Shown piece by piece: positions 4,441 to 64,000 of a DNA stretch of 64,000 bases (its first letter is position 1; every line of letters begins with the position of its first letter). Below the pieces are notes generated by a model that was not told the DNA's origin, searched no databases, and worked only from the letters and a program-made list of their open reading frames with translations. Made by a program: the position numbers and the translations under genes. This DNA is from Oscillospiraceae bacterium (GTDB lineage Bacteria; Bacillota; Clostridia; Oscillospirales; CAG-272): contig SVTL01000001.1 of assembly GCA_015063795.1 (NCBI GenBank), forward strand, positions 1-64,000, given 5' to 3'.

Positions 4441-4529
4441 CTGGAAACGTCGGTGGAAAACCGATTCATCCTTACCGCTGAAAAAGCGGTCACCTGCGAA
4501 AGCAGAGTCCATAAGGAGGTATATTAGCT
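4441..4529 (+). promoter_or_regulatory. Structured rpsF leader, candidate S6:S18 autoregulatory site
   Basis: The leader contains three small hairpins: CGGTGGAAAACCG, ACCGCTGAAAAAGCGGT and CTGCGAAAGCAG, then the AAGGAGG ribosome site. In many bacteria the rpsF leader binds the S6:S18 complex and represses its own operon. Position and hairpin content fit, but I could not match the consensus in detail. Confidence 0.4.
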
Positions 4530-4826
4530 ATGGTAAAGGCAAACGCATCGTACGAAACCATTTTTATCGTTGACCTCAACCTCGGCGAAGAGGGCGTGAA
4601 GGCGATGGTAGAGAAGTTCACGAAGCTGATCTCTGACAATGCAGAGCTTGGCGAAGTAAACGAATGGGGCAAGAAGAGACTTGCATATCCCATCAACGAC
4701 ATGAACGAAGGTTATTACGTGCTGGTTGAGTTCAAGGCTCCCGCAGGCTTCCCCGCAGAGCTTGAGCGCATTTACAGCATCACCGAAGGCATCATGCGTT
4801 CCATCGTCGTCAGAAAAGACGCGTAA
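4530..4826 (+). CDS. rpsF: 30S ribosomal protein S6
   Basis: This 98-residue protein is the usual length for bacterial S6 and carries the family's YETIFIVDLNL start, the GKKRLAYPINDMNEGYYVLVEF core and an IMRSIVVRKD end. S6 binds S18 and helix 22-23 of 16S rRNA in the small-subunit platform. It heads the conserved rpsF-ssb-rpsR operon, and AAGGAGG precedes the ATG at good spacing. Confidence 0.98.
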   Translation: MVKANASYETIFIVDLNLGEEGVKAMVEKFTKLISDNAELGEVNEWGKKRLAYPINDMNEGYYVLVEFKAPAGFPAELERIYSITEGIMRSIVVRKDA

Positions 4827-4844
4827 CGAACAGGAGGCGAAAAC

Positions 4845-5312
4845 ATGGCAAATTTCAATTTTAACAAGGTAATCGTCGGCGGCCGACTGACTGCGGATCC
4901 CGAACTGAGACAGACTTCCAACGGAATTGTCGTAACCTCGTTTTCGATTGCCGTCAATCGCCGTCCCTCCCGCACCGCTGACGGACAGACTCAGCAGCAG
5001 ACCGATTTCCTGAACGCCACCGCATGGCGTCAGAACGCGGAGTTCATCACCCGCTTCTTCAAGAAAGGAAGCTCGATCTGCGTGGTCGGCTCTCTCCAGA
5101 CGAGAAAGTGGACCGATCAGCAGAACAACACCCGTTATGCCACCGAGATCGTTGTCGATGAGGTGTGCTTTGTTGACAGCAAGGGCGAAGGTCCTCAGGG
5201 TATGTCAACGGCCGGGGCCGCCGATTCCTTTGGCGCTCCCAGCTTCAGCAACGGCGTGTCTGCACCGTCAGACTTCGAGGTCGTCAGCACAGACGACGAT
5301 CTCCCGTTTTAA
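4845..5312 (+). CDS. ssb: Single-stranded DNA-binding protein
   Basis: This 155-residue protein has an N-terminal OB-fold of about 110 residues (NKVIVGGRLTADPELRQT, FSIAVNR, FLNATAWRQNAEF, VVGSLQTRKW). A flexible Gly/Ser/Ala-rich linker follows, then the acidic tip DDDLPF that recruits replication and repair partners. It coats single-stranded DNA as a tetramer during replication. It lies between rpsF and rpsR as in most Firmicutes, 18 bases after rpsF, with an AGGAGG ribosome site. Confidence 0.98.
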   Translation: MANFNFNKVIVGGRLTADPELRQTSNGIVVTSFSIAVNRRPSRTADGQTQQQTDFLNATAWRQNAEFITRFFKKGSSICVVGSLQTRKWTDQQNNTRYATEIVVDEVCFVDSKGEGPQGMSTAGAADSFGAPSFSNGVSAPSDFEVVSTDDDLPF

Positions 5313-5351
5313 TTTGCGGACAAACGTTCCGCAGGAAAGGAAGAGATAAAA

Positions 5352-5624
5352 ATGGATAACAAACAGCCCAGAGAAGCAGCCCCCGCAAAGGCTCCTTACA
5401 AGCCCGGTATGAACCGCAAGAGAAAGAAAGTTTGTCTGCTCTGCGCCGACAAGGTCGAAGAGCTTGACTATAAGGATGTTGCCCGCCTGAGAAAGTTCGT
5501 CAGCGAGAGAAGCAAGATCCTGCCCCGCCGCATCACCGGCAGCTGCGCAAAGCATCAGCGTCAGATCACCGTTGCCGTCAAGAGAGCCCGTCAGGTCGCT
5601 CTCCTGCCTTACGTCAGCGACTGA
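5352..5624 (+). CDS. rpsR: 30S ribosomal protein S18
   Basis: This 90-residue protein has an N-terminal basic tail and the S18 core [35 protein letters not shown] and [16 protein letters not shown]. It forms the platform heterodimer with S6 in the small subunit. It ends the operon and is followed by a terminator. Its last 34 codons plus the terminator are duplicated 1485 bases downstream, beyond the AraC-GNAT gene; this upstream copy is the intact one. Confidence 0.98.
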
Positions 5625-5669
5625 TTGTAACATGCAACCGAAAGGACGACCGTTTGGCCGTCCTTTTTT
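5521..5669 (+). repeat. 149-bp direct repeat, copy A (rpsR 3' end plus terminator)
   Basis: This segment matches 7006-7154 at the same length with no gaps; by eye only three positions differ. It covers the last 34 sense codons and stop of rpsR and the following terminator through its T-run. The two copies flank the AraC-GNAT gene, so the pair looks like the footprint of an integration or duplication event. Confidence 0.95.
5641..5669 (+). terminator. Rho-independent terminator after rpsR
   Basis: An 11-bp stem with one mismatch (AAAGGACG...CGTCCTTT) closed by a GTTT loop is followed by six T residues. It ends the rpsF-ssb-rpsR transcript. Confidence 0.93.
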
Positions 5670-5699
5670 CGTCCTTTGTTAAACTCAGCGTTTGCTGTC

Positions 5700-5728
5700 A
5701 AGACAAAATGGCAAGGATATGTTACAAT
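5700..5728 (+). promoter_or_regulatory. Putative promoter of the AraC-GNAT gene
   Basis: AAGACA (5700-5705) and TACAAT (5723-5728) are spaced by 17 bases, about 50 bases before the gene. The match is moderate. Confidence 0.6.
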
Positions 5729-5779
5729 GAGAACACAAACCGACAGCTGAACGTTTGAAAGAAAAAGGAGGATTGTTCG

Positions 5780-7000
5780 ATGGAAAACAGCGAACTTATC
5801 ACAAAAGCATTGAACTATATCAAATCCGAGAATCGAAAAAAGGACATCACCATCGATGATATCGCAGCGCATGCCGGCTTTTCTACCGATTACTTCAACC
5901 GTATTTTCTTTGCGCATACCGGATTCAAGATCATGGAATACGTTCGTTTCAGTCGGTTGCAAAGGGCGGCACGGCTTTTGCGGGGAACGAATCGCGAGGT
6001 TCTTGACATTGCTCTCGACTGCGGATACGAAGCGCACGAAAGCTTTTCGAGAGCATTCAAAAACCAATACGGTTCTTCACCAAGCGAGTACAGAAAGAAA
6101 TATGAAAAGATCGAGGCCTATTACGGTGATTTCTATAACGATACGATCGGTGCAAGGCTTTTGCATGAATTCAAAGATTTTAAACAGGCAGACAGTGACG
6201 ACGTGATCGACTGGTTGTTGGAAACCGATTCGCTTCGCTACGGATATACCGCTGTTTGCTTCCGTGTTAACGGAGGCGCGGCACTATACAACGGGGAAAA
6301 TTTCCGAGATGGATTTGTTTGGTTTACCGAATGGGGGAATCGCATTGAGGGTGAGATCCTTTGCGACGATTGGGATAAAATTGCCGAATACAAAAAGATT
6401 TTTTCGGACGATCGTTTCGAGATGATTCTGTATACGATGGAATCCGACGAAGTGATAAAAGACGAGCTTTCAAAACGAGGCGCGGTCGTTCACAGCATTG
6501 AGAGACATCAAAGCAATGTCTATGCGGGAGAACCTTACGCCCTTCCTTCCATGGACAATCTTTCCATGAGGCTGATTCGTTATGAGGATGCGGATCTTGT
6601 GACGAAATTCTATTCGGAAATCGGATACAAGGGTCCGAGAGTCACGCATTTGAAGCGGGAATTGTACCAAAGAGACGTTTTGGGATGCGCTGACCATTCG
6701 GTCTTTATGTTCGGCATATTCAAAGAGGACCGTTTGATCGGCGTAAGTGACGGAGGCTTGCAGAAGGCGCATGGTTTTGTAATCAACAATTGCGTTGTAA
6801 CGTCAATTTTGCCCGAATATGAAAGTGAAGCGCTGTATCAGTATGCATTCAAGTTTGTCACGAACGCGGCGCTTGAAAAAGGGGCGCTGCCGGTGGATGA
6901 CTTTCAAATTCCGAATACAACATACGGAAAAAAACGAGGTGCATTTTGCTCGACAGATTTTGGCTATCAAACGGTAACAAATGTTTGTACGTTGAAATAA
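5780..7000 (+). CDS. AraC-family regulator fused to a GNAT-like acetyltransferase domain
   Basis: This 406-residue protein starts with an AraC/XylS DNA-binding domain (about residues 8-105: [22 protein letters not shown], then [33 protein letters not shown]). That domain is usually C-terminal, so the order is reversed. A middle region of about 130 residues has no family I recognise. The last 150 residues ([46 protein letters not shown]) look like a GNAT acyltransferase lobe, perhaps a ligand sensor rather than an enzyme. GGAGG precedes the ATG. The gene is AT-richer than its neighbours and is bracketed by the rpsR-end repeat, which points to recent acquisition. The downstream repeat copy supplies its terminator. 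Confidence 0.85.
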
Positions 7001-57612: not shown

Positions 57613-60351
57613 TTATCTTCCGCGCTGTAACATTTTGGAAAACACCGAAGCGATCTCAGCGCGCGTGATGTTGTTCAAAGGCTTCAGCGTGTTGTCCTCA
57701 TAGCCTGTGATCACGCCCGCGGCGTAGGCGACCGACAGCTTTTCTTTCGCCCACTCGGGGACCTTGTTTGCATCGGCGAAGGTCAGCGGAGCGGGGGCAA
57801 TGCCGGTCATCAGCGAGCCGAAGACATACATCACCTCGGTGCGGGTAATGTTGTCGTTGGGACAAAAGTGAACCTTACCGTCGGGCATGGCCTTGCCGTT
57901 CATCAGCCCCTTGCCCACCGCTGCCTTGACATAGGGGAGCGCCCAGGACGGAATGTCGGCGGTGTCGGCGAAGGAAAGCTCGGTATCGGCAAAGGAGGCG
58001 GTGTCGATGCCGCGGAAGCTGACCAGCATCTTGGCAAATTCAGCGCGGGTCAGGTTGCGGTTGGGATGGTAATAGCGGCCGCCGTCTGCTTCCACGCTGC
58101 CCTGTGTGATGCCGGTCTCGTAGAGGGAGGAAACGGCGCTCTTTGCCCAATGCTCGTCCATATCCGCGAATACGGCCGGCTCATCGCCGAAATCGAGCGT
58201 GAACGCATCCATGGTCAGCGAGACGGGGAGGGTGGCGGAGAAGGGGGCAAGGACAGTCAGAGGCTGCTTGATCTCGGAAGGAATGACCGCCTTCATCTTC
58301 ACCAGCCCCATGGCCGGGTATTCTTTTTCGACCTCGTACCGCAGGGAGACGCCGATGCCGTCTGCGTCCAGCGCGCGGACAAAGCATTCATTCATCAGCG
58401 GGAAGCTGTCCACCCACAGCGTAAAGGCTTCGCCGCCCTCGGCCATGACCTTCGGCTGCAGATAGAGCAGATCGCGCCCCGAGAAGAGGAGGGAATAGGT
58501 GCCCTGAAGCAGCTTTGGCTGCTGGGTGAAGGTGACGTCGTCGGTATAGAACACATCCTCGAAGCCGTATTCCATGGCGTTGATCAGCGCAGGCGCGCGG
58601 CCGACGGTGATCTTCACCGAATCGGAGATGCCGCCGTAAGAGACGGTGAGCGTGACGCTCTCAAAAGCCTTGCCGGGATTGGGGTGGATCGCGCCGCTGC
58701 GGTCGATGTAGGCGATGTCGCAGGCAGCAAGGATGTTGGGATCGCTGATATTCAGCTCACCCTCAGAGAAGGACCAGTCCAGCGAAGCGGCATCAACGTG
58801 GGTGAGGATGCCGTCCAGCGAAGCGGACAGCGTGAGCGCATACGAGCTTTTGGAGGGAATGCTGATCTCGCTTTCTTCGATTTCCAGGCGGTCCAGCCTG
58901 TCCACCACGAAGATGTCGGAGCTTCCGTTCAATGGGACGCCTGCGACTACGGCGGAGGCGGTGATGAGAGCCTCGCCCACCGTATCCGCCAAGAAGGTAT
59001 TGCCCTGAAGCCGCCCGACGGTGCTGGCGGTGGTGAAGAGGATGGCGCTCGGAGAGACCGATTCGATAACCTTATAGGAGGTATCGCGCACGGCGGCGGA
59101 CATGGTCAGCGCAGAGCCCTTGAGCACATAGGCTGTGTTGGGCGTGATCTTCAGCGAGGCGGGAACGCCGGTGTAGGACAGGGTGTTGGCGAAGAGAACG
59201 GCATTGGCCAGACTGCGCTCGCTTCCGTCGGAGGGGCGGCTGACGGTCAGGACCTTGTTTGCACCCGAATGCTTGATGGCAACAGTGGTGGAGCCGCCAC
59301 CGTCGAGATTGAGAGCGGTGACACAGCCCAGCTCCTGCATGGTGGCCGCCAGCTCGTTCAGCGTCAGTCCCGTGCTGTATCCGCTCTGCTTGCCGTCGGT
59401 GGCGAAGAAAAGGATGGTGCCGTCTGCCTTGGCGCCGACGGCGGTGCGGGGGTTGTTCTGCTTTTCGTGCGCCTCGTCGACGATGCCTTCCTTGATCTTG
59501 CCGTTCTCCACCAGCAGATCGCCGCCGCCGATGGCCGTCTCCACCATCGTCCACTGCGGATCGATGGTAAAGGTAAAGGCAACGCTGTCACCGACCTTGA
59601 TGCTCTTGTAATCTCCTGCGTTCTTCAGCTGATCGGGGATGGTTATGACTAGCGAGCCTTCGGGGATGGCGCTGTTCTGCGAGGCGGTGCGGATGTCGGA
59701 AACGGTGCCGTGAAAGCCGCTGACCGTGCCGGCCTTGCCGGACAGCTTGATGACGATCTCACGGGAGGAAAAGCTGCTCTTGGTGGATTCGGCGTAATCG
59801 TCGGACATGGCGTACACGCCGTACACGGTGGGATATTTGTTGTAGTGGTCGATTTTATAGGTGCGTCCGCCGATGGCCATGGACAGGGAGATGGCAGGGT
59901 TGCCTGCGATCACGCTGCCGTCATAGCGGATGCCGAAGGCGTTTCGGTCGGCATTGGAGGAGAGGATGCGTCCGTTTGCGATCAGTGCGCTCATGGGGAT
60001 GCCGGTCTGAAAGCTGAAAAAGTCGCCGTTGATGCCTGAGACGACATCGTACCCCTCGTTCTCCGCGCTTCGGACAAGGGAGGAGAGGGTGTCCCGCCCA
60101 TACAGATGCTCGCCGCTTCGGATCAGAGGGAGAGTTCCCTGGAAGGGACGGTATTCGAAAACAAAGGAGCGGTGATTCTCGCTTTCGGTGCGGGAATAAA
60201 GCTCGGAGTAGGTAAGACCGGGGGAGAGCGTGTCGCTCTCGCGGTAATAGACCTCGCCGAGGGCGGAGTGGTCGGCGGCACCGGCAGACAGCAAAAGCGG
60301 CAACGCGAGGAGAGCGGCGGAAAGGAGAGCGGAAAGGGTGTGTTTTTTCAT
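57613..60351 (-). CDS. Phosphodiester glycosidase (NAGPA-like) surface protein with C-terminal SLH domains
   Basis: This 912-residue protein has a signal peptide (about residues 1-26). A NAGPA-type domain (about 90-360) follows, with YDVVSGINGDFFSF, VGAKADGTILFFATDGKQSG and ALNLDGGGSTTVAI, which belong to the phosphodiester glycosidase family that in mammals uncovers mannose-6-phosphate and in bacteria acts on cell-envelope glycans. Beta-sandwich domains fill the middle. Three SLH repeats at the end (FADMDEHWAKSAVSSLYETGITQGS, WALPYVKAAVGKGLMNG, WAKEKLSVAYAAGVITGYED) bind the cell wall. A good extended -10 promoter lies about 55 bases upstream. Confidence 0.92.
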   Translation of the reverse strand: MKKHTLSALLSAALLALPLLLSAGAADHSALGEVYYRESDTLSPGLTYSELYSRTESENHRSFVFEYRPFQGTLPLIRSGEHLYGRDTLSSLVRSAENEGYDVVSGINGDFFSFQTGIPMSALIANGRILSSNADRNAFGIRYDGSVIAGNPAISLSMAIGGRTYKIDHYNKYPTVYGVYAMSDDYAESTKSSFSSREIVIKLSGKAGTVSGFHGTVSDIRTASQNSAIPEGSLVITIPDQLKNAGDYKSIKVGDSVAFTFTIDPQWTMVETAIGGGDLLVENGKIKEGIVDEAHEKQNNPRTAVGAKADGTILFFATDGKQSGYSTGLTLNELAATMQELGCVTALNLDGGGSTTVAIKHSGANKVLTVSRPSDGSERSLANAVLFANTLSYTGVPASLKITPNTAYVLKGSALTMSAAVRDTSYKVIESVSPSAILFTTASTVGRLQGNTFLADTVGEALITASAVVAGVPLNGSSDIFVVDRLDRLEIEESEISIPSKSSYALTLSASLDGILTHVDAASLDWSFSEGELNISDPNILAACDIAYIDRSGAIHPNPGKAFESVTLTVSYGGISDSVKITVGRAPALINAMEYGFEDVFYTDDVTFTQQPKLLQGTYSLLFSGRDLLYLQPKVMAEGGEAFTLWVDSFPLMNECFVRALDADGIGVSLRYEVEKEYPAMGLVKMKAVIPSEIKQPLTVLAPFSATLPVSLTMDAFTLDFGDEPAVFADMDEHWAKSAVSSLYETGITQGSVEADGGRYYHPNRNLTRAEFAKMLVSFRGIDTASFADTELSFADTADIPSWALPYVKAAVGKGLMNGKAMPDGKVHFCPNDNITRTEVMYVFGSLMTGIAPAPLTFADANKVPEWAKEKLSVAYAAGVITGYEDNTLKPLNNITRAEIASVFSKMLQRGR

Positions 60352-60405
60352 CGTGATACCTGTATGTATGTAAGGGTGGATGGCGTATAAAAATCGGATA
60401 CTCTC

Positions 60406-60414
60406 ATTATACCA
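60406..60414 (-). promoter_or_regulatory. Extended -10 promoter of the glycosidase-SLH gene
   Basis: On the minus strand TGG-TATAAT (60406-60414) has the extended -10 form; the -35 is poor. Confidence 0.65.
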
Positions 60415-60530
60415 CAACAAGCGTGAACGGAAAAGGGGCAAACGAAAATTTTTTATGAAAATTCCAGTGCGTTTTTTCGGAAGGAAAAGGCAAAAGAAAC
60501 AGAATTTGTATAAAAAATTTCTAAAAACTA

Positions 60531-60559
60531 TATACAAAATCAAAAAGATATGATATAAT
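60531..60559 (+). promoter_or_regulatory. Promoter of rlmB
   Basis: TATACA (60531-60536) and TATAAT (60554-60559) have a 17-base spacer within a very AT-rich stretch. Confidence 0.75.
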
Positions 60560-60614: not shown

Positions 60615-61370
60615 ATGAAGCAGGAAAAAGAACGGAATGAAAATGTGGTTGCCGGGCGCAACCCGGTGCTGGAGCTCCTCAATTCCGGACGGGATATCGA
60701 AAAGATCCTTGTCCGCAAGGGCGATCGGACGGGCTCGGTGAATCTGATCATCGCCAAAGCGAAGGAGAGGGGCATCCCTCTTGTGGACGCCGAAAACGGC
60801 AAGTTGGATTCGCTGGCGGGCGGCGTGGCGCATCAGGGCGTCATTGCGCTGGCCTCCGAAAAAGAGTATTGCTCGGTGGACGACATTCTCCGCATCGCGG
60901 AAGAGCGCGGGGAAAAGCCGCTGATCCTGCTGTCCGACGGCATTGATGATCCGCACAATCTGGGCGCGATCATCCGAACGGCGGAATGTACCGGTGCTCA
61001 TGGGCTGTTGATCCCCAAGCGCCGTGCGGTGGGGCTGACCTCGGTGGTCGAAAAGGCATCGGCGGGTGCTTTAGAGCACTTTGCGGTGGCCAAGATCGGC
61101 AACGTGGCGCAGACCATCGATGAGCTGAAGGAGAAAGGGCTCTGGGTCTTCTGTGCGGAGGCCGGCGGTCAGCGGTACGATCAGGCGGATTACGATCTGC
61201 CGATGGTGCTGGTGCTGGGCAGCGAGGGCTTCGGTGTCTCCCGTTTGGTCCGCGAAAAGTGCGATTTCACCGTTTCCATCCCCATGCGAGGTAAGATCAC
61301 CTCGTACAATGTCTCGTCCGCTGCGGCGATCCTGCTTTGCGAAACGCAAAGACAACGATATTTGAAATGA
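60615..61370 (+). CDS. rlmB: 23S rRNA (guanosine-2'-O-)-methyltransferase, TrmH/SpoU family
   Basis: This 251-residue protein has the family's N-terminal RNA-binding domain (VVAGRNPVLELLNSG, LDSLAGGVAHQGVIAL) and the SPOUT knot with LLSDGIDDPHNLGAIIRTAE near residue 107, LVLGSEGFGVSRLVRE near 196 and IPMRGKITSYNVSSAAAILL near 222. It 2'-O-methylates a guanosine in 23S rRNA, G2251 in the Escherichia coli numbering. Other SpoU members methylate tRNA, so the exact nucleotide is inferred. The next gene starts 17 bases after its stop. Confidence 0.92.
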   Translation: MKQEKERNENVVAGRNPVLELLNSGRDIEKILVRKGDRTGSVNLIIAKAKERGIPLVDAENGKLDSLAGGVAHQGVIALASEKEYCSVDDILRIAEERGEKPLILLSDGIDDPHNLGAIIRTAECTGAHGLLIPKRRAVGLTSVVEKASAGALEHFAVAKIGNVAQTIDELKEKGLWVFCAEAGGQRYDQADYDLPMVLVLGSEGFGVSRLVREKCDFTVSIPMRGKITSYNVSSAAAILLCETQRQRYLK

Positions 61371-61387
61371 CATAAGGAGCCAGACTT

Positions 61388-64000
61388 ATGGAACATAAAC
61401 ACAACAAAAACGAGATGTCCCCCTCCGAACTGCTCCGTCTGCTGCGCGCCGATCTGGAAAAGCGGCACGGCAACACGGGCATCGGCGAGGAGTATGCGGC
61501 AAGGCCCTCGGAAAGCGCCGGTGTGCCGATGGCTGAACAGGCGGAGGTGCATGATGATTATGTGCCCATTGTTCCCTCGGTAAAGGCAGAAAAGACCGGG
61601 GAGAGCGGCGAGAGCTATCTGTTCACCGAAAAGCAGGATGCGCTGGAGCAGGATGCCGATGCCTTGGAAACGGCGGAGGTGCCTGCGGTTTCGTCCGGAG
61701 AGACGGTGTATGCCGATTTCACGGCGGCGGATCTGGAGGCTGTGGATGCCGATGATGCTGCGGATGCCGCTGATGAAAGCGGTGAGACGGTTTTGTTTGA
61801 CAAGGCCGGGGTTTCTCCGTCCTATCGCAAGAAATATACCTTCACCATCACCCGCAAGAGCGCGGAAGCTCCTGCGCCCGAGCCGGATGCGGCGGAAGCG
61901 ACGATCACTGTTCCCGTTGTGGATGCCGCTGCTGCGGACAGCGATGACATCGATGTGGACGGGCTGATGAAGAAATATCTGTCGGCTGAGGATTATGAAA
62001 AGTATGCCGGCGCCAAGAGTGCGACTGACACCGATCTGTCGGCGGTCAGCGGCGCGGTCCCGTCTGTGAGCGAGATCGGCCCCTTCACCTCGGAGGGATA
62101 CGACGGCGACGACATCCAGAAATCCATTCAGGCGGCTGAGGATTATATTTACGCTTACGAGCATACCGAGGAGCACGAATCGGTGGAGAGCGAGGACGGC
62201 GAGGCCAAGAAGGAATCCTTCGATGAGACCGACGTTTGGATCAGCTCGATCTTCGATGACGAGGAGGAGACCGAAAAGAAATTCGGCGCCGATAAGGTCA
62301 ACGAGATCAACCGCGTTGTGGAGCAGTATGAGACCGATGAGAGCAGCTTCACCGCTCCGATCGCCAAGATTGAGGAGGAGTTCACCTCTCCCGCTCAGGC
62401 AAAAAATGTTTTCGCGCAGTACCGCAAGGAGCACAAATCCCTGCTCGGTAAGCTGGCGGCCTGCATTGTGTTTTTGATTGTCACCTTCTTCTATGAAAAC
62501 ATCGGGCTGTTCGGCGGAGCCTCTCTGCCCGGCGCTCTGAATGCCGATGTGTACCCGGTGGTGCACATCATGATCGATCTGCAGCTGCTGGTGCTCTGTG
62601 CCGCTCTGATCTGGAAGCCTCTTTGGAACGGTGTGCGTGCCATGCTGCGCTTCCGCTTCATTCCCGAAAGCCTGACTGCGCTGATCTTGGCAGTAACGGC
62701 GGTGTATCACATCGCGCTCTGCTTTGTGGGATATGCGCAGGATCTGCGCCTGTTCAATTTCTCGGTCATTTTCTGCATCTTCCTCACCCTTCTTTTTGAG
62801 TTCCTCAACCTCAAGCGTGAGATCTTCGGCTTCAACATTGTTTCGTCCAAGAAACCGAAGTATGCGGTGGTGGATCTCGACTCCGAAAAGTCGGTGCTGG
62901 AAAACGAGGTGTTTGCCGAGTATCTGCCCAAAGATCCCTCCATCTTCCGCATCAACCGCGTGAAGTTTGTCGAATCCTTTGCCGCCCGTATGAACCGCGG
63001 CTCCAAGTTCCTTGCCATTCTCAAGGTTATCCTCCCGCTGGCTCTGCTGACGGGCGTTGTGTTCGGCATTGTGGCCGGCGCTCTTGCCAAGGATGCCTAT
63101 TCCGGCCTCTCGGCCGGCTATATCGCATTCCTGCTCTGCCTGCCCTTCTCGGTGCTCTTCACGTTCAGCTATCCCTTCTACAAGGCGTCGGAGGAAGCAT
63201 TTGAGGTGGACAGCGCCATCGTGGGCGAGGAGGCTTTGGAGGAGTATTCCAATGCGTCGGTCATCTCCTTCGAGGACAAGGATGTCTTCCCGTCTTACGG
63301 CGTCAAGGTCAAGAGCGTGAAGGTGTACGGAGAAAACCGCATCGACCAGGTGCTGTACTGTGCGGCAAGCCTCTTCCGCAAGGTGGGCGGTCCGCTGGCG
63401 GATGTGTTCGACATGGCCACGCTGGAGTTGGGACACTCCGACGATGTGGAGCTGATCGAGGCGGCCGACGACGGTCTGGAAATGACGGTGGACGGCAACC
63501 ATGTGTTTGTGGGCCGTGCGTCCTATATGCGTGCCAACCGCTATTCTCCCATCTACGATCCCGATGACGACTCGCTGGAAAATTCGGGCGAGGTCAGCAT
63601 CATGTATATGGTCAGCAACGACGAGATCATCGCCAAAATGTACATTCAGTACATGGTCGATCCCGATTTCGAATTCACGCTCAAGCAGCTGTACAAGGCC
63701 GGCATGTGCGTGGGTATCAAGACCTTCGATCCCAACATCAACGACCGTTTGCTGAACATGCGGATCCCTGCGTCCAAGTACCCGGTCAAGCTGCTTCGCT
63801 GCCGCGATCTGAGCGATGTGAATGTCACCATGCCCAAGGCCGACAGCGGAATCGTGTCGAAGAATTCGCCGCGTTGCCTGCTTCAGGCTCTGGCGATGTG
63901 CGGCAAGGTCCTGCACGTGGAGAAGACCTCCATCGTCATCAAGGGCATTTCGGTCTTCCTTGCCATTCTGATCATGGTCTTCCTGCTCGTGTTCGGGCAG
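61388..64000 (+). CDS. Large membrane protein, degenerate P-type ATPase relative (partial, runs off the window)
   Basis: The frame stays open from the ATG at 61388 (AAGGAG upstream) to the window edge, 871 codons without a stop. Residues 1-350 are acidic, Ala/Glu/Asp-rich and likely unfolded. Membrane helices begin near 352, with about four before residue 480 and two more between 545 and 595. From about 540 the order matches P-type ATPases: helix pair with CLPF (584-587) where CPC is usual, then VISFEDKDVFPSYGVKV (625-641) at the DKTGTLT position, NHVFVGRASYMR (705-716) like the nucleotide-domain VLVGN strand, and MCVGIKTFDPN at 779-783 at the TGD position. The phosphorylated Asp and TGD glycine are absent, so it is probably not an active pump. 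No function is known to me. Confidence 0.72.
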   Translation, partial: MEHKHNKNEMSPSELLRLLRADLEKRHGNTGIGEEYAARPSESAGVPMAEQAEVHDDYVPIVPSVKAEKTGESGESYLFTEKQDALEQDADALETAEVPAVSSGETVYADFTAADLEAVDADDAADAADESGETVLFDKAGVSPSYRKKYTFTITRKSAEAPAPEPDAAEATITVPVVDAAAADSDDIDVDGLMKKYLSAEDYEKYAGAKSATDTDLSAVSGAVPSVSEIGPFTSEGYDGDDIQKSIQAAEDYIYAYEHTEEHESVESEDGEAKKESFDETDVWISSIFDDEEETEKKFGADKVNEINRVVEQYETDESSFTAPIAKIEEEFTSPAQAKNVFAQYRKEHKSLLGKLAACIVFLIVTFFYENIGLFGGASLPGALNADVYPVVHIMIDLQLLVLCAALIWKPLWNGVRAMLRFRFIPESLTALILAVTAVYHIALCFVGYAQDLRLFNFSVIFCIFLTLLFEFLNLKREIFGFNIVSSKKPKYAVVDLDSEKSVLENEVFAEYLPKDPSIFRINRVKFVESFAARMNRGSKFLAILKVILPLALLTGVVFGIVAGALAKDAYSGLSAGYIAFLLCLPFSVLFTFSYPFYKASEEAFEVDSAIVGEEALEEYSNASVISFEDKDVFPSYGVKVKSVKVYGENRIDQVLYCAASLFRKVGGPLADVFDMATLELGHSDDVELIEAADDGLEMTVDGNHVFVGRASYMRANRYSPIYDPDDDSLENSGEVSIMYMVSNDEIIAKMYIQYMVDPDFEFTLKQLYKAGMCVGIKTFDPNINDRLLNMRIPASKYPVKLLRCRDLSDVNVTMPKADSGIVSKNSPRCLLQALAMCGKVLHVEKTSIVIKGISVFLAILIMVFLLVFGQ

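Follow-up and report, generated by a model that had tools for sequence, protein, structure and literature searches.

The last gene of the window, by which we mean the whole 64,000-nucleotide stretch analyzed here (positions 1 to 64,000 of contig SVTL01000001.1 from an Oscillospiraceae bacterium), encodes a protein resembling a P-type ATPase whose catalytic motifs have been replaced. Is this a decaying pump gene, or a conserved protein with another role? The open reading frame starts at 61388 on the plus strand behind an AAGGAG ribosome-binding site and, when its 3′ end is read on the same contig, reaches a stop at 64090, giving a protein of 900 residues in which GDGxND is absent from the newly recovered end as well. 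The gap of 17 bases to the upstream rlmB that an earlier note on this DNA had claimed is confirmed (rlmB stop at 61368-61370). No terminator-like site was found between the two genes, and they are therefore probably carried on a single transcript. A promoter-like site precedes rlmB (Table 1), which is weak evidence, as the consensus scan found overall no more sites than chance. Two further frames were noted on the minus strand. A 936-codon open frame at 61190-64000, antisense to the ATPase-like gene and the end of rlmB, is probably a shadow of codon bias, and a large divergent frame upstream of rlmB (57613-60543) looks by eye like a secreted protein with S-layer-homology repeats.

Table 1. Features of the ATPase-like gene and its upstream neighbor, in window coordinates.
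Feature	Position	Strand	Details
Promoter-like site, extended -10 (TATACA-17-TGnTATAAT), upstream of rlmB	60531..60559	+	Consensus scan
rlmB, 23S rRNA (guanosine 2251-2'-O)-methyltransferase; immediate upstream partner	60615..61370	+	TIGR00186 E 6.4e-64, over cut-off
Pseudo-P1B-ATPase gene	61388..64000	+	900 aa; runs past the window end to a stop at contig position 64090
Acidic, Cys-free N-terminal tail, residues 1-340	61388..62407	+	83 D/E, 29 K/R, 0 C
N-terminal short motif, residues 11-19, S-P-S-E-L-L-R-L-L	61418..61444	+	Window version of SxDELLxxL / SLESILAEF
TM1-TM4, residues 349-477, equivalent to MA, MB, M1, M2	62432..62818	+	Hydropathy, model helices, hhalign
Remnant actuator domain, TGE-bearing half deleted	62819..62998	+	Loop 72 aa vs. 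135 canonical; TGE Glu column gapped in 123/125
TM5-TM6 (M3, M4)	62999..63181	+	CPC reduced to L-P-F, Pro586 kept
F628-E-D-K-D-V-F-P635, replacing DKTGTLT	63269..63292	+	D630 111/125, D/E632 100/125, F634 109/125, P635 89/125
Nucleotide-domain relic, residues 640-755, VDGNHVFVGR at 701-710	63305..63652	+	Foldseek P1B N-domain matches; ATP-binding His replaced by Gly668
Tyr755	63650..63652	+	Y in 120/125; invariant Asp in canonical pumps
T779-F-D-P-N-I784, replacing TGDxxx	63722..63739	+	D781 118/125, P782 93/125, N783 90/125, I784 92/125
ADSGIVS, read as ADIVL remnant	63839..63859	+	Preceding GDGxND segment deleted
TM7 (M5)	63917..64000	+	TM8 past window end

Relationship to P1B ATPases

Homology to P1B (CopA-like) ATPases spans residues 340-900. 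With the window protein alone, the NCBIfam heavy-metal P-type ATPase model TIGR01525 gave an E value of 5.1e-6 (25.6 bits, against a cut-off of 346 bits) and a phmmer search matched LpCopA (3rfu) at 7.5e-5, while Pfam returned no family match. A profile built from 76 family members brought LpCopA to 8.9e-22, with further P1B pumps ranking after it, and hhalign against nine canonical P-type ATPases of related genomes gave a probability of 99.8% over 493 columns. TIGR01525 was matched by 28 of 55 diverse members and the CopA model PRK10671 by 21 (best 4.5e-17). Structure prediction took us part of the way: a PDB fold search with AlphaFold models returned P1B ATPases first, including Foldseek matches to the P1B N domain, but the models, built from an input of three sequences, had pLDDT values of 46 in the core and 44 in the P/N region, which are too low to support statements on structure. 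The profile, LpCopA, hhalign and fold matches together show descent from a P1B ATPase, most likely a CopA-like one. The P-type likeness proposed in the earlier note is thus beyond chance, although it begins already at TM1 (about residue 349) and not at residue 540. The family has no entry of its own among the family libraries searched, and searches of viral contigs and plasmids found no relative.

Compared with P1B ATPases such as those of TIGR01525 and PRK10671 and LpCopA (3rfu), the protein has the same eight-helix topology, with actuator remnant, P domain and N domain in the same order, and shares the VDGxxVxxG strand, the M4 proline and an ADIVL-like C-terminal element. It differs in lacking DKTGT, TGE, GDGxND, CPC and the N-domain histidine, and in carrying a long acidic tail and no cysteine metal-binding domain. 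Classified by these sequence features, it is a P1B ATPase homologue, yet not itself a P-type ATPase, and we refer to it below as the pseudo-pump.

Lost catalytic motifs and a new signature

To count motifs, we aligned 125 family members with the nine canonical pumps. Hydropathy gives eight transmembrane helices, with TM4 and TM6 each followed by a cytoplasmic loop, as in the P1B topology, and the helices also appear in the low-confidence model. The actuator loop is indeed too short to hold a normal TGE region (Table 1). In M4 the proline is kept in 110 of 125 members and the flanking cysteines are not conserved, so the CPC/SPC/CPx metal motif is lost. DKTGT is absent from all 125 aligned members; its lysine column holds aspartate in 111 and its phospho-aspartate column a mixture of D, E, T, S and N. 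The replacement sequence FEDKDVF had been correctly placed at 628-634, as had TFD, in place of TGD, at 779-781. Here the threonine and aspartate are retained and the glycine is replaced, giving TxDPNI. The N-domain span is unchanged (154 residues vs. 153 in canonical pumps), but its HP histidine has become Gly, Ser or Cys across the family, and a single glycine of GxG is kept. Downstream, the GDGxND columns are gapped in 125/125, and the distance from TGD to ADIVL falls to 42 from 78 in canonical pumps. The losses consist of specific deletions and substitutions and do not amount to general decay.

The Post-Albers cycle needs DKTGT, TGE and GDGxND. With all three lost, a pump cycle would be impossible and the protein would be a pseudoenzyme: judged from the aligned motifs, loss of catalysis in the family is near certain, and the pseudo-pump is in all probability unable to run a phosphoenzyme cycle.

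In place of the old motifs, the family carries a signature of its own, F628-x-D630-x-[DE]632-x-F634-P635, Y755 and T/S779-x-D781-P-N-I, and G709 is kept in 124/125. Position 630 is D or E in 118/125, whereas E629 and K631, which had been named together with it as candidate invariant residues, are not conserved across homologues; the functional residues therefore differ somewhat from those first proposed. The T779-F780-D781 triplet fared similarly, T/S779 and D781 being conserved in a signature that reads T/S-x-D. The D630-x-[DE]632 pair is conserved and resembles the DxD of HAD motif I, but is shifted by one relative to DKTGT in the alignment.

The long acidic N-terminus, free of metal-binding cysteines as the earlier note had described (Table 1), occurs across the order with a median length of about 340 residues. 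Near its start lies a short motif of the form S-x-[DE]-[DE]-L-L-x-x-L in the taxonomic family of the window genome and F-S-L-E-S-I-L-A-E-F elsewhere in the order. A regular expression for it matched 36 of 113 N-termini, where shuffled sequences would give 0.2, and 0 of 85 mid-tail segments. Using a degenerate DNA pattern, we also tested the motif as a general docking tag and rejected this: most genuine in-frame DDILAE matches are the pseudo-pump gene itself. At one locus (L167, genome G265), the family's N-terminal motif was seen at the C-terminus of what appears to be another open reading frame, of 273 residues and ending SYDLDDILAEFRDNP; this frame may be the same tail in a copy that carries a frameshift.

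Distribution, selection and gene neighbors

A single-copy orthologue is present in 117 of 118 genomes of the window's taxonomic family, the one miss being a genome that is 82% complete. At a threshold of E 1e-30 the gene is found in 239 of the order's 247 genomes, and about 242 of 247 have it once three misses are explained: G253 and G285 carry weaker copies just under that first threshold, and in G139 a contig end cuts the gene after the N-terminal motif. Five genomes of the order are left without it. Outside the order, we found no full-length member in about 520 genomes of class and phylum samples, where the remaining matches are canonical pumps at profile positions of about 200-490. Between congeners dN/dS is 0.05-0.15 (dS 1.2-2.0), and the gene is under purifying selection. 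As no homologue carries DKTGT, this selection makes the family a conserved pseudo-ATPase family. Interrupted copies were seen twice, a split one at L142:3126-5558 and one with a single in-frame TGA at G020:C4, and may reflect sequencing error, recoding or recent pseudogenes.

The most constant neighbor is rlmB: of 117 loci for which upstream sequence is available, at least 114 have it immediately before the pseudo-pump and in the same orientation. Among the three exceptions, two have a split frame, leaving one real case, in G118. There (locus L181) the gene, at 4502-6781, is unlinked from rlmB, which is elsewhere, and sits behind apparent dnaX and recR; at another locus (L144) dnaX and recR lie downstream of the pseudo-pump. 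Presence follows the same line: in the 241 genomes that carry RlmB no absence of the pseudo-pump came to light, and of the six that have no true RlmB, five are missing the pseudo-pump too. The clearest case is genus g108, with two genomes (G167 and G221, 95-97% complete), which lack RlmB, the pseudo-pump and a second EF-G where relatives carry two EF-G, an apparent joint loss. In G189, G200 and G306, the neighboring genes could all be missing because of a single gap in the assembly.

Neighbors other than rlmB vary between taxonomic families. Outside the window's family, 21 of 56 loci, spread over nine families (L139, L149, L143, L145, L146, L133, L187, L192, L197, L105 and others), have an EF-G paralogue (NF009381) immediately downstream in the same orientation, and most of these genomes carry two full-length EF-G genes. 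Within the window's family the count is 0 of 61, and most loci instead have a TIGR03960 radical SAM (rSAM) gene and TIGR03936 downstream. The rlmB adjacency may come from co-transcription instead of common function. Individual rRNA modification enzymes of E. coli have mild deletion phenotypes, yet stimulate 50S assembly, according to excerpts of PMC11194073.

Possible roles of the pseudo-pump

What might such a protein do? We favor a membrane scaffold or sensor, derived from a P1B ATPase and tied to ribosome biogenesis or translation, at a rough probability of 0.55. A scaffold or sensor fits a membrane bundle whose long acidic tail carries a conserved motif at its terminus. The helix bundle would anchor or sense, the N-terminal motif, to go by its conservation, would dock a cytosolic partner from its acidic tether, and the remodeled P domain (D630, D/E632, Y755, D781) may retain a partner- or ion-binding pocket. 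The link to the ribosome is suggested by the strict linkage to rlmB and the frequent linkage to an EF-G-like GTPase; we give even chances to a role, hinted at by these conserved neighbors, in ribosome maturation or in translation close to the membrane. A more specific version, in which a dead copper pump has become an order-wide membrane factor that, with RlmB, tethers or senses ribosome maturation or the activity of the EF-G paralogue through the acidic docking tail, is speculative and in its full form rather unlikely.

Several other explanations can be set against the same data. That the gene is a decaying pump has next to no probability left: although every catalytic motif is lost and the copies at two loci are split or broken by a stop (L142, G020), order-wide orthologues, new invariant residues and the dN/dS range given above rule decay out, as does the absence of any homologue with DKTGT. 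The pseudo-pump might instead serve as a pseudo-subunit that regulates an active P-type ATPase of the cell, for instance in a dimer with CopA. Canonical P1B ATPases do occur in the same genome and the common fold makes pairing plausible, but in the loci that we read no P-type ATPase gene adjoins it; the constant neighbor is rlmB and the other recurring ones are EF-G-like or rSAM genes, which leaves such a partnership improbable.

A passive channel or facilitator, built on the P1B bundle and working without ATP, would make use of the eight transmembrane helices and the retained M4 proline; against it, the CPC metal site is gone and conservation peaks in the cytoplasmic P/N relic and the new motifs rather than in the membrane, and we likewise give this little weight. 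Finally, F-x-D-x-[DE] is similar to motif I of the HAD superfamily and TxD to its motif II, so that a noncanonical HAD phosphotransferase using D630 of the D-x-D as nucleophile can be imagined, and, given the DxD-like motif, unconventional phospho-chemistry retains a small probability. However, the motif IV segment (GDGxND) is deleted in every aligned member with no conserved substitute and the ATP-contacting histidine is lost, making an enzyme of this kind very unlikely.

The pseudo-pump has its nearest analogue, by logic, in human TMEM94 (ERMA), which likewise has a P-type ATPase-like architecture. One cryo-EM study reports neither TGES nor a phosphorylation cycle in TMEM94 (PMC12134183); its status is disputed, as a 2026 paper defends an ATPase role (PMC13322241). 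TMEM94 is a eukaryotic ER protein with ten transmembrane helices and a fold nearest to SPCA, whereas the pseudo-pump has eight; no TMEM94 chain was among the PDB sequence or fold matches listed, and we see no evidence that the two share an ancestor. In alveolates, guanylate cyclases fused to a P4-ATPase-like domain offer another P-type-like domain in a signaling role, as described in parts of PMC6592433 and PMC7858053. By the same partial accounts they differ from the pseudo-pump in being eukaryotic, of P4 type and fused to a cyclase, and an excerpt of PMC7858053 gives the activity of the P4 domain as essential. For bacteria, our literature searches of open-access papers found no report of inactive P-type ATPases.

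Studies of P-type ATPases usually treat them as active pumps. Here a bacterial family appears to have kept the fold and lost the whole catalytic cycle, and it is near-universal in a large order of Clostridia, yet overlooked by Pfam. Its links to rlmB and to an EF-G paralogue offer a testable hint of a role around the ribosome.
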